Part shown: positions 27,707 to 31,578 of the stretch, in pieces
Layout: each line of letters begins with the position of its first letter
How positions within the stretch are numbered: the first letter of the stretch is position 1
Assembly: GCF_001548675.1 (NCBI RefSeq)
Contig: NZ_CP010834.1
Location: 903,501 to 967,500, forward strand
Length of the DNA: 64,000 nt
Source of the DNA: Methanobrevibacter sp. YE315
GTDB taxonomy: Archaea > Methanobacteriota > Methanobacteria > Methanobacteriales > Methanobacteriaceae
Reading direction: 5' to 3'
The notes under the pieces: generated by a model
What the model was told of the DNA's origin: nothing
Databases searched by the model: none
Seen by the model: only the letters and a program-made list of their open reading frames with translations
Position numbers and translations under genes: made by a program

Positions 27707-28384
27707 ATGAAATCAATTGCCATTATTCCTGCATTTAACGAAGAAGCGGCTATTGAAAGTGTTGTAAAGAAATCGTTTCAATATGTAGATGATGTTTTGG
27801 TAGTTGATGATGGAAGCAGCGACAATACTTTTCAGATTGCTGAAAATTCAGGTGCAATCCTTTTGAGGCATCCCACCAATTACGGTAAAGGCATTTCCCT
27901 AAAGGATGCTTTTGCTAAAGTCAATGGTTATGATATTGTAGTGACTATTGACGGCGATGGACAACATAATCCTGATGAAATACCTTTGCTTGTTAAACCG
28001 ATTACTGATGGAAAAGCGGATTTGGTTAATGGCAGCAGATATTTGAATGGTTTTGATGAGAATACGCCGGCTTATAGGCGTGTTGGCCAAAAGGTTTTGG
28101 ATATTGCAACAAACATCACTGCAGGAACAAATGTTACAGATTCACAAAGCGGGTTTAGGGCATTTTCCGGAAATACTATTTCTTGTTATAAATTTAGGGA
28201 TCCTGGTTTCGGAATAGAAAGCGAAATGTTGGCTGATGCTGCTGAAAACAATTTAAGAATTTTGGAAGTTCCAATTACCGTAAGGTATGATGTTGAGAAT
28301 TCTTCAACCAAAGGGCCGGTGAGTCATGGCGTTGGTGTTCTACTTAAGATTTTTAAAGATAAGATTATTAGAATAATTAGATGA
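27707..28384 (+). CDS. GT2 family glycosyltransferase (DPM/Alg5-like)
   Basis: A 225-residue GT-A fold enzyme of the dolichyl-phosphate sugar synthase type. IIPAFNEEAAIESVV opens the domain, then VVDDGSSDNT, the metal-binding DGDGQH, and SQSGFRAF. No transmembrane helix follows, so it probably works at the cytosolic membrane face, moving a sugar to a polyprenyl phosphate or lipid. The ATG lies 1 nt after the epimerase stop; an in-frame TTG 9 nt earlier would overlap that gene. It is the third gene of the galU operon, so the donor is likely the UDP-sugar made upstream (inference). Confidence 0.9.
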   Translation: MKSIAIIPAFNEEAAIESVVKKSFQYVDDVLVVDDGSSDNTFQIAENSGAILLRHPTNYGKGISLKDAFAKVNGYDIVVTIDGDGQHNPDEIPLLVKPITDGKADLVNGSRYLNGFDENTPAYRRVGQKVLDIATNITAGTNVTDSQSGFRAFSGNTISCYKFRDPGFGIESEMLADAAENNLRILEVPITVRYDVENSSTKGPVSHGVGVLLKIFKDKIIRIIR

Positions 28385-29613
28385 TTATTATGCAGAATAG
28401 ATTAATTAAAAAGACTGGAGAGGAAATTTCTCCATTGGGCTTTGGAGCCATGAGGCTGCCTCTTAAAAATGGTAAGATAGACAGAGATAAGGCTAAAGAG
28501 CTAATCTATTATGCAATTGATAATGGCGTTAATTTCATCGACACAGCATATCTCTATGGTGATAGCGAATCGTTTTTAGGCGAAATATTAACTGACGAAA
28601 TCAAATCAAAGGTTAAAATCTGCACAAAGCTTCCAACAATCAATGTCAGAAAATATGATGATATGGAAAATATTTTTGAAGAACAGCTTAAAAGGTTAAG
28701 ATTGGACTGCATCGACTATTACCTTATTCATGCAGTGGACTTGAAGGCGATTAATCGATTATTCAAAAGGGATTTAATTAAATTTATTGATAAGATTAAA
28801 TCTGAGGGAAAAATCAAATATGTTGGCTTTTCATATCATGGGCCGAAAGACGAATTTGAGGCTATAATTGACAGTTATGACTGGGATGTTGTAATGGTTC
28901 AATATAACTATTTTGATGAAAATGTGCAGGCCAGTATGGAAGGGATAGAATATGCGGCTTCTAAAGGAATGGGTGTTTTTGTAATGGAACCGCTTAAGGG
29001 CGGTATCTTAGCAGGAAAAATGCCTAAAGAGGCTGAAGAAATATTTAAAAAAGCAAATCCTAATAAAAGCAATGCTCAATGGGCTTTTGAATGGGTTTTG
29101 AACAATAGGAATGTTACATGCGTATTGTCTGGAATGAATAGTTTTGAGCAACTCAATGAAAACTTGGCTATTGCAGAAAAAACCACTCCTCTTTCTATGA
29201 GCTTTGAGGATATGGAAACGGTTGAACTTGTAAAAAGGGTAATGAGGAACTCATTAAAGATTAACTGTTCAACATGCGGCTATTGCGTGCCGTGTCCTCA
29301 GGGGGTTAATATTCCCGAATGCATGAAAATATATAATGAAAAATATCTCTTTAACCATAAGGGACTCATCAACCAGTCTTTAATTGATTATTATCAATAT
29401 GTTGGAGGCATTATGGGTAATGAAGGCAGTGCAGGATTGTGCAATGGATGTGGAAAATGCTTAAGGAAATGCCCTCAAAAATTGGATATTGTCAGCGAAT
29501 TGAAAAAAGTTAAAAAGGAATTTGAATTTCCAGGTGTCAAATATATTCTTTCATTTGTCAGGCATGTCGGTTTTCCACTTTATAGGCAAGCAATAAGGAT
29601 TTTAAACCGCTGA
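28381..29613 (+). CDS. Aldo/keto reductase with C-terminal 4Fe-4S ferredoxin domain
   Basis: A 410-residue protein with a TIM-barrel aldo/keto reductase domain (residues 1-280) followed by two cysteine clusters of ferredoxin type. The barrel carries GFGAMRLP, the catalytic Asp/Tyr segment FIDTAYLYGDSE, the catalytic Lys in CTKLP and His in YLIHAVD. The C-terminus has CSTCGYCVPCP and CNGCGKCLRKCP. This fused family is common in anaerobes; its substrates are mostly unknown, and the clusters could pass electrons from ferredoxin. The start overlaps the preceding stop by 4 nt; a second ATG lies 9 nt later. It may belong to the sugar operon or be linked to the radical SAM cassette that follows. Confidence 0.9.
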   Translation: MIIMQNRLIKKTGEEISPLGFGAMRLPLKNGKIDRDKAKELIYYAIDNGVNFIDTAYLYGDSESFLGEILTDEIKSKVKICTKLPTINVRKYDDMENIFEEQLKRLRLDCIDYYLIHAVDLKAINRLFKRDLIKFIDKIKSEGKIKYVGFSYHGPKDEFEAIIDSYDWDVVMVQYNYFDENVQASMEGIEYAASKGMGVFVMEPLKGGILAGKMPKEAEEIFKKANPNKSNAQWAFEWVLNNRNVTCVLSGMNSFEQLNENLAIAEKTTPLSMSFEDMETVELVKRVMRNSLKINCSTCGYCVPCPQGVNIPECMKIYNEKYLFNHKGLINQSLIDYYQYVGGIMGNEGSAGLCNGCGKCLRKCPQKLDIVSELKKVKKEFEFPGVKYILSFVRHVGFPLYRQAIRILNR

Positions 29614-29691: not shown

Positions 29692-29901
29692 ATGAAACTT
29701 GAAGAGTTATTGGCTCCATGTCCAAAATGTGGTTCAAAAGATAAGGTGGCTAAAAGAAAATTATTGGACAATCACAGGGCACATGCAGAAATGGATGCAG
29801 TAAAATGTTCTGATTGTGGTTACATTTTCTTTGTAAATGATGATATGGACGAAGATGAGAAAAAGAAATTATTGAATGAATTAAACAAAGTTTACGGATA
29901 A
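29692..29901 (+). CDS. Small Cys-rich peptide beside radical SAM enzyme (TIGR04165-like)
   Basis: A 69-residue acidic polypeptide with two CxxC motifs (CPKC, residues 10-13, and CSDC, about 40-43) in a rubredoxin-like zinc-ribbon spacing, then an acidic DDMDEDEKKK tail. From memory, methanogens encode a Cys-rich peptide family (TIGR04165) next to a specific peptide-modifying radical SAM enzyme, and this pair fits in size, composition and position. It is the presumed substrate of the enzyme 2 nt downstream. There is no signal peptide, so the modified product is probably intracellular. The start is ATG after AAGGTG. An alternative is an ordinary zinc-ribbon protein. Confidence 0.8.
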   Translation: MKLEELLAPCPKCGSKDKVAKRKLLDNHRAHAEMDAVKCSDCGYIFFVNDDMDEDEKKKLLNELNKVYG

Positions 29902-29903
29902 AA

Positions 29904-31031
29904 ATGACATTTCACGTAATGATTATTCCAACACTCAATTGTCCATCAAATTGTAAATACTGTTGGGGATCTGAAAATAAAAAAGAAATGATGGATATTG
30001 AAATCATTGACCAGATTATTACATGGTTAGGCGATTTTAGGGATGATGATGTTCACTTCACTTTCCATGGTGGCGAACCGCTTCTTGCAGGCTATGATTT
30101 TTATGAGGAAGCTTTGGAAAAATTGTCTAAGTTGCCTAATCTGGATGGATTTTCCCTTCAGAGCAATATCTGGCTTTTGACCGAAGAGCTCATAGACTTG
30201 TTCATCAAATATGATGTTGTTGTAAGTACAAGTATTGATGGGCCGAAGGAAATCAATGATTTTCAAAGGGGAGACGGCTATTTCGATAAGACCATGACAA
30301 AATTCAGGTTAGCTAAGGATAAAGGGCTAATAATCAACTTTGTTTTGACAGTTACTGATTATTCAAAGGATTTCTCTGATGAATTGTATGATTTCTTTAA
30401 AAGCGAAAAGATGAATCTTAAGATTCATGCGGCTCTTCCATCATTAAGGGGAGACAATGCAGATCCATGGGCGCTTGACCAGGAAGAGCATGGCAAGTTG
30501 CTTGTTGACTGGTTGGACAAATACCTTTATGATTTGGATAAGTTTACCGTAATGGATTTGGACCATATCTCTAAAAGCGCACTCAGAAGAAGAGGCACAC
30601 TTTGCACATTCGCAGATTGCATCGGAACAACCCTTGCAGTAGGGTCCGACGGTTCAATATATCCATGTTACAGATTTGTTGGGATGCCTGAATATGTTTT
30701 GGGTAATGTCGCTGACAATCCAAGCTTTGATGATTTGAAAACATCTGATGCATGGGCAAAGCTCATGGAATTCAGGGATTATGTTGATGAAAACTGCAAA
30801 AAGTGCAGATATGTCAAATATTGTGAAGGAGGATGTCCTTACAATGCAATTGTGGCATATCAAACACCGAAGGCAGTTGATCCGCAATGTACAGCATATA
30901 AAATGATTTTTGGAGAAGTTTCAAAAAGAATGAATAAGGAATTCGCTAAATCCGCCTTTGGAATGGGAGCATCCGAACCAAGAAAAGAAGGTGAACCGTT
31001 CAGCATTATGGATTTGGCTATGAAACCTTAA
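29904..31031 (+). CDS. Peptide-modifying radical SAM/SPASM protein (TIGR04083-like)
   Basis: A 375-residue enzyme expected to modify a small peptide using S-adenosylmethionine. The radical SAM cluster is C13-x3-C17-x2-C20 (NCPSNCKYCW) and HGGEPLL binds the cofactor. The C-terminal SPASM region has CTFADC, YPCYR, CKKCRYVKYC and GGCPYNAI, enough cysteines for auxiliary Fe-S clusters. Overall resemblance is to anaerobic sulfatase-maturing enzymes, but no sulfatase is nearby. The start follows the Cys-rich peptide stop by 2 nt, so the two are translated together. I match it from memory to the methanogen family TIGR04083. The chemistry (thioether, epimerisation or other) cannot be inferred. Confidence 0.88.
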   Translation: MTFHVMIIPTLNCPSNCKYCWGSENKKEMMDIEIIDQIITWLGDFRDDDVHFTFHGGEPLLAGYDFYEEALEKLSKLPNLDGFSLQSNIWLLTEELIDLFIKYDVVVSTSIDGPKEINDFQRGDGYFDKTMTKFRLAKDKGLIINFVLTVTDYSKDFSDELYDFFKSEKMNLKIHAALPSLRGDNADPWALDQEEHGKLLVDWLDKYLYDLDKFTVMDLDHISKSALRRRGTLCTFADCIGTTLAVGSDGSIYPCYRFVGMPEYVLGNVADNPSFDDLKTSDAWAKLMEFRDYVDENCKKCRYVKYCEGGCPYNAIVAYQTPKAVDPQCTAYKMIFGEVSKRMNKEFAKSAFGMGASEPRKEGEPFSIMDLAMKP

Positions 31032-31047
31032 CTCTGGTTTTGATAAT

Positions 31048-31173
31048 ATGATTTGTGATGATTGCCAACATTTGGAGCTTAGAAACAAGTATAAAATTGT
31101 ATGTAAGGTTCATGAGCATCTATTATTGGATGTTAAGGAATGTCAAAACTTTAAACAGAAAGAGGATGAATAG
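31048..31173 (+). CDS. 41-residue four-cysteine ORF downstream of radical SAM gene
   Basis: This small ORF encodes 41 residues with cysteines at 3, 6, 19 and 32 and histidines at 8, 22 and 24. It opens with MICDDCQHL. It starts 16 nt after the radical SAM stop on the same strand, with no strong Shine-Dalgarno sequence. The CxxC start followed by two single Cys resembles a tiny metal-binding protein or a second substrate of the enzyme. I do not recognise a family. Support is the in-frame Cys/His pattern, charge distribution and operon position; it could still be a chance frame. Confidence 0.55.
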   Translation: MICDDCQHLELRNKYKIVCKVHEHLLLDVKECQNFKQKEDE

Positions 31174-31330
31174 TATTTCTATTCATATTATTTTTTTAAT
31201 TGATGATTTTGCAGATTGGTTATTTTCTATTTTTTCAAAGGCCAGACATGAGGAAATCTTGCCTAATGAACAGTATTCTTGATGAAGTATTTTGAATTGC
31301 AAAAAATACTTTACACTAATTTTTTCCAAA
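31174..31330. other. Non-coding gap with possible gene remnant
   Basis: No complete gene is seen. About 26 codons ending at 31282 read as DDFADWLFSIFSKARH and onward, which looks protein-like but has no plausible start. At 31285-31312 the arms AAGTATTTT and AAAATACTT form an inverted repeat related to the repeats that follow. Confidence 0.4.
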
Positions 31331-31565
31331 GTAATACTGAGTATTTAAATGAACTCAAAAAAAGTAATACTTTTATATATTATTTCTTACAAAATTACTT
31401 ATAGTAATACTGAGTATTTAAATGAACTCAAAAAAAGTAATACTTTTTGGCTGTTTGGTGGTTACTGAATTTAATTTTTTTGCATGTCTTAAAATTCTGG
31501 GAGGACTATTAAAAAATTTTTGAGTAATACTGAGTATTTAAATGAACTTAAAAAAAGTAATACTT
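31331..31565 (+). promoter_or_regulatory. Three copies of a 42-bp promoter/operator repeat
   Basis: The same 42-bp sequence occurs at 31331-31372, 31404-31445 and 31524-31565; the last copy has one C-to-T change. Each contains the palindrome AATACTGAGTATT, an adjoining TATA-like TATTTAAATG, and a second AGTAATACTT about 20 nt further on, near the expected transcription start. The third copy ends 13 nt before the ATPase ATG, so it should be the proximal promoter. The layout fits a repressor site flanking a box A, repeated three times. The metal-transport target suggests metal-responsive control (inference). Confidence 0.7.
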
Positions 31566-31578
31566 AGAGGTGTTTTAT

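Follow-up and report, generated by a model that had tools for sequence, protein, structure and literature searches.

The radical SAM/SPASM enzyme encoded in the window (the whole 64,000-nucleotide stretch of the Methanobrevibacter sp. YE315 genome that we analysed) is probably not the maker of a modified peptide. From sequence comparisons, the best-supported role for its family, TIGR04083, would be modification of McrA, with desaturation of Asp450 as the most likely step. We consider it fairly likely that the enzyme converts this aspartate to didehydroaspartate (dD), with the neighbouring TIGR04165 small protein as its partner in the Methanobacteriales. Methyl-coenzyme M reductase (MCR) is behind nearly all biological methane, and its dD lies close to thioglycine.

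The three ORFs and the gaps between them that the initial annotation had described were all found on the plus strand, including the two CxxC motifs of the first and the four cysteines of the third (Table 1). Its assignment of the first two genes to TIGR04165 and TIGR04083 agreed with profile searches, in which both proteins scored above the curated cut-offs. Scores were 89.6 bits for the 69-aa protein against TIGR04165 (cut-off 60) and 594 bits for the enzyme against TIGR04083 (cut-off 300), the enzyme aligning to model positions 1–375 of 376. The ORFs flanking the cassette encode an aldo-keto reductase, a glycosyltransferase, a heavy-metal P-type ATPase and an unassigned 329-aa protein. None of them is an exporter or leader peptidase, which supports the intracellular setting that had been proposed.

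Table 1. Features of the cassette and its surroundings, in window coordinates.
Feature	Position	Strand	Description
Aldo-keto reductase	28381..29613	+	Directly upstream of the cassette; C-terminal Cys-rich ferredoxin-like tail
TIGR04165 small protein	29692..29901	+	69 aa; C10xxC13 and C39xxC42
TIGR04083 radical SAM/SPASM enzyme	29904..31031	+	375 aa; 2-nt gap after the TIGR04165 ORF
Radical SAM [4Fe-4S] motif, C13xxxC17xxC20	29940..29963	+	Invariant in 130 full-length family members
SPASM region	30603..30890	+	Cys 234, 239, 255, 298, 301, 307, 311 and 329; invariant among family members
Conserved C-terminal helix and tail	30897..31028	+	Enzyme residues 332–375; lost in the M. wolfeii gene
ORF3	31048..31173	+	41 aa; Cys 3, 6, 19 and 32; 16-nt gap after the enzyme
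45-nt repeat, first copy	31330..31374		
45-nt repeat, second copy	31403..31447		
45-nt repeat, third copy	31523..31567		

Just upstream of the heavy-metal P-type ATPase gene lie three near-identical 45-nt repeats (AGTAATACTGAGTATTTAAATGAACT...AGTAATACTTTT) with the inner palindrome AATACT-G-AGTATT, where chance would produce none. They resemble operator sites to which a metal-responsive regulator would bind, and similar stretches occur 3' of the enzyme gene in relatives (L033, L037, L043 and L028).

The predicted structure of the enzyme (pLDDT 88) has a helix at residues 329–351 and an ordered end at 368–375. Its best match in both fold and sequence was the anaerobic sulfatase-maturating enzyme (TM approximately 0.8, approximately 24% identity). 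In sulfatase-maturating enzymes of this anaerobic type, the third SPASM Cys is followed immediately by an Asp that acts as general base. Alignment with 4k37 placed an invariant YPC255-Y256-RF motif opposite the YPC-D of the sulfatase-maturating enzymes; because the general base is replaced by an invariant Tyr, the chemistry of TIGR04083 must differ in detail. We rejected the enzyme as a sulfatase maturase itself on this replacement and on its score against TIGR03942 (171 bits, below the cut-off of 349).

In profile searches of 152 genomes from the phylum of the window, 132 had an enzyme above cut-off and 136 had the peptide, so the matches of both proteins go well beyond chance; both were present in 131 and neither in 15, and the discordant cases were mostly gene fragments or incomplete genomes. 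The conserved gene pair recognized earlier is thus borne out: the genes are adjacent in most Methanobacteriales genomes and present or absent together in nearly all 152. In genus g12 they lie on separate contigs or far apart (G114, 1,578,361 versus 36,091; likewise G119, G122 and G128), and in these genomes both are present although unlinked. Given this co-occurrence even without linkage, the pair belongs together functionally in the Methanobacteriales.

Such tight pairing, in which the genes are mostly adjacent, both kept where unlinked and absent together, is what one would expect if TIGR04083 modified the TIGR04165 peptide, crosslinking or oxidizing it at its cysteines or close to them, for activity inside the cell. 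The peptide-modifying name that NCBIfam gives to TIGR04083 points the same way, as does the frequency with which peptides are targets of SPASM enzymes. We nevertheless think this reading unlikely, and the initial proposal of a self-standing system with the peptide as substrate lost ground on several counts. The enzyme family, with higher scores than in the window, occurs without TIGR04165 in all three Methanosarcinia that were checked for the peptide (M. acetivorans, Methanolobus vulcani and Methanothrix): profile searches found no TIGR04165 above cut-off in the genomes of L077 and L078, and none at E 0.001 or better in the M. acetivorans control. In that class and its relatives the enzyme is frequently encoded within the mcr operon or close to it, in places together with Mmp10. 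Nor did we find two features of a RiPP-type system, namely a precursor peptide present wherever the enzyme is, given these three Methanosarcinia, and an exporter and/or leader peptidase in the cluster, given the surroundings of the window cassette.

The peptide itself also fits this reading poorly, as its four cysteines follow a zinc-ribbon pattern with no leader/core layout. It scored 33.5 bits against the Pfam Lar zinc ribbon (PF14354, gathering score 28.6), and C10, P11, C13, G14, D17, K18, C39, C42 and G43 were invariant in 83 homologues. Its structural model (pLDDT 78) comprised three strands and a C-terminal helix; a fold search with this model returned no match below E 0.5, the weak ones including NrdR, TFIIS and Rpb9-like zinc ribbons. 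We therefore predict that the TIGR04165 protein is a zinc ribbon. Strict co-occurrence and the predicted fold together suggest an adaptor or chaperone that partners the enzyme in the Methanobacteriales; alternatively, it could carry electrons or serve as a second substrate. In Methanothermobacter, a second, longer TIGR04165 homologue (frame mostly 78–84 aa; G144:C1:519871-520050 and equivalents) lies approximately 5 kb from the first copy on the opposite strand, and the longer homologue also occurs in G139–G142, elsewhere in genera g15/g16.

The third gene had been suggested as a second substrate, among other roles. No curated family matched ORF3 above threshold (Pfam DUF7140 reached E = 0.009, under its cut-off). 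It is a real gene, as judged from its 23 homologues, 14 aligned invariant residues including all four Cys, and a median dN/dS of 0.11, with changes concentrated at third codon positions (367, versus 176 and 65 at the other two). These properties, and its place directly 3' of the enzyme in many Methanobrevibacter, speak for a role on which the cassette depends, as second substrate or as metallochaperone. We judge such a role very improbable: in many other Methanobrevibacter and in every other genus examined, ORF3 is missing behind the enzyme and its place is taken by a repeat array or by different genes. The enzyme therefore does not require ORF3 as a second substrate. We propose that ORF3 is a lineage-restricted accessory or passenger gene.

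In the Halobacteriota, the enzyme is associated with MCR. It was above cut-off in 152 of 238 genomes of the class of Methanolobus vulcani, with scores above that of the window enzyme, and in M. vulcani itself (L078) it lies directly behind mcrA. In an evenly drawn sample of 393 Halobacteriota genomes, McrA was present in 128 of the 132 that carry the enzyme and was not detected in the other 4; a further 96 genomes had McrA without the enzyme and 165 had neither (Fisher p 2.6e-35, for genomes that are not independent).

Linkage to the mcr operon was found in several Halobacteriota groups. Among 68 genomes with both genes on one contig, a non-random set with readable coordinates in which relatives count separately, the enzyme lay within 2.5 kb of mcrA in 25, and in 21 it was downstream on the same strand, with gaps from 144 nt. 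Where genomes have no PDB tie, group names here are inferred from McrA similarity. The order mcrB-D-C-G-A-TIGR04083 was read in Methanolobus-type genomes (L078, L209–L212), in ANME-2c (L259) and in seven more Halobacteriota loci, probably Methanomicrobia (L252, L253, L255–L258 and L260); L254 reads mcrG-mcrA-TIGR04083 close to a contig end. In presumed Methanotrichaceae, the enzyme adjoins both mcrA and Mmp10, the MCR-arginine methylase, which acts on the McrA subunit too (L204, L205 and L207), or lies at mcrA with no Mmp10 in the stretch read (L206 and L208), and in ANME-2d-like genomes it lies 5 kb behind mcrA. It is unlinked to mcr in Methanosarcina and in the Methanobacteriales checked, including the window genome (G000), where the enzyme is at 933 kb and mcr at 1996 kb.

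Two other small ORFs were seen at mcr loci. Directly behind the TIGR04083 gene of L212 (8836–9201, G288) is a 121-aa McrA-like ORF (87% over the match), an arrangement suggestive of a partial mcrA duplication flanking that gene. Directly behind mcrA in ANME-2d-like genomes (L202, 8454–8699; L203, 9935–10192) is an 81–85-aa protein with DnaJ-type CxxCxGxG zinc knuckles and weak matches to anti-TRAP/DnaJ.

The known distribution of dD agrees with that of the enzyme. According to a review table, dD occurs in both MCR I and MCR II of M. marburgensis and in the MCRs of M. barkeri and M. acetivorans, and is absent from M. kandleri, M. formicicus, M. wolfeii, M. thermolithotrophicus, M. shengliensis, ANME-1 and Ca. 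Ethanoperedens (PMC9081873). The MCRs of ANME-2c and ANME-2d carry dD (PMC12413448), and its position in M. acetivorans is Asp470 (PMC7058361). Its biosynthesis has been described as unknown (PMC8070964) and its maker left unassigned (PMC7581889).

We tied genomes to structures with a scored dD state through McrA identity. The enzyme gene was present in each dD-positive organism: M. marburgensis (G144, gene intact; McrA fits the 3pot/5a0y chain by eye), M. barkeri (G307; 100% to 1e6y over 310 aa), M. acetivorans (G303; 100% to 8gf5 over 406 aa), ANME-2c (G180; 97% to 9qm5) and the ANME-2d-like G196 (95% to 9qqt), with G198 tied likewise. Among dD-negative organisms, there was no TIGR04083 above cut-off in Ca. 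E. thermophilum (G161; McrA identical to 7b1s over 595 aa) and none in an ANME-1 genome (G465; 1289 bits over the whole of 3sqg). M. jannaschii, used as a control, also had none; its dD state was taken from its order, whose characterised MCRs are dD-negative, and among the controls only M. acetivorans matched at E 1e-60. In M. wolfeii (G151; both McrA 100% to 5a8k/5a8w) the enzyme gene contains an in-frame stop. The comparison covers eight or nine organisms and leaves out two dD-negative ones: M. shengliensis, whose McrA (7nkg) had a best identity of 76% among 238 genomes of its presumed class, and M. kandleri, seen in no genome set. The target Asp is present in McrA of the window genome (GFDLQDQC).

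The M. wolfeii gene aligned with that of M. marburgensis over 1128 nt with no indel, and the stop arises by a TAC to TAG change at the position aligned with Tyr332 of the window enzyme, where 99% of family members have Tyr. It would remove the C-terminal 40-odd residues, corresponding to the ordered helix and end segment of the model. In this one assembly, frameshifts also interrupt several genes neighbouring the enzyme, and the stop may thus reflect an error in sequencing; as support for a dD role, we downgraded it from the strongest argument to one that is suggestive only. The M. thermautotrophicus copy (G149) carries a one-base deletion, either a genuine mutation or an error of early sequencing. 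A diverged TIGR04083 copy with an in-frame TGA (G236:C47:64335-65450; 210 bits), in a genome that bears McrA, is a possible natural loss of the enzyme.

Linkage to mcr and co-occurrence with McrA do not by themselves name an MCR residue, and organisms with a known dD state are few. The enzyme could therefore act on MCR at another residue or step (modification, assembly or repair), with the dD match a small-sample coincidence. This seems improbable to us in view of how the other modifications are distributed and made. N1-methylhistidine and thioglycine are universal or nearly so, and 6-hydroxytryptophan and methylglutamine have other distributions, so none of them matches the enzyme gene. Enzymes are already assigned to the arginine, glutamine, cysteine and thioglycine modifications of MCR, and Ca. 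Ethanoperedens has no enzyme gene yet carries most other MCR modifications. Desaturation of the McrA aspartate thus remains our preferred reading. For the Methanobacteriales, a link to MCR would rest on family membership and on the contrast between M. marburgensis and M. wolfeii; against it weigh the distance of the enzyme from mcr, its place beside TIGR04165 and the near-perfect co-occurrence of these two genes.

If the enzyme makes dD, its target would be the conserved Asp of ...GYDLQDQC... (Asp450 in M. marburgensis, Asp470 in M. acetivorans), which would lose two hydrogens. Judging from the family, the radical SAM cluster would give rise to a 5'-deoxyadenosyl radical that abstracts the beta hydrogen of the Asp, and the auxiliary SPASM cluster would take the second electron. 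Anaerobic sulfatase-maturating enzymes work by the same two-electron oxidation logic, which would here be transferred to another side chain, assisted in the Methanobacteriales by the co-encoded TIGR04165 zinc ribbon as putative adaptor or chaperone of the enzyme.

Were this correct, the maker of a patchy modification would become testable by a single gene deletion, and the uneven distribution of dD would be explained by the presence or loss of one gene. Heterologous MCR production would obtain a component it now lacks, and a function would be assigned to an uncharacterised family that is at present called peptide-modifying. For a SPASM enzyme, desaturating a protein would be unusual chemistry. 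That the product is undescribed, as originally proposed, is consistent with the function-less, hypothetical-equivalog family names and with a literature search that found nothing on TIGR04083 or TIGR04165; a search joining didehydroaspartate with MCR or radical SAM likewise found no paper naming an enzyme, and as coverage in both lacked most subscription papers and all preprints, an earlier description is possible.

Among known systems, anSMEcpe (4K37–4K39) has its cluster layout in common with TIGR04083 and carries out a two-electron oxidation of one protein residue, the logic proposed here; its Asp after the third SPASM Cys corresponds to Tyr256. Lar and other zinc-ribbon small proteins share two CPxCG-like knuckles with the TIGR04165 protein, which does not reach the NCBIfam Lar model (27.4 bits, cut-off 39.6) and, unlike Lar, shares an archaeal operon with a radical SAM gene and has no restriction system beside it. 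The NCBIfam entries TIGR04083 and TIGR04165 describe the same gene pair as in the window; the 'peptide-modifying' label finds no support in genomes in which the enzyme is found without TIGR04165, sometimes beside mcrA. Radical SAM enzymes dedicated to MCR include Mmp10/MamA (TIGR03278) and MgmA, which methylate Arg and Gln. Mmp10 is encoded next to mcr, and some Methanotrichaceae-like genomes have it immediately beside TIGR04083. Mmp10 and MgmA are methyltransferases (MgmA is B12-dependent), whereas TIGR04083 has a SPASM domain and would dehydrogenate its target.
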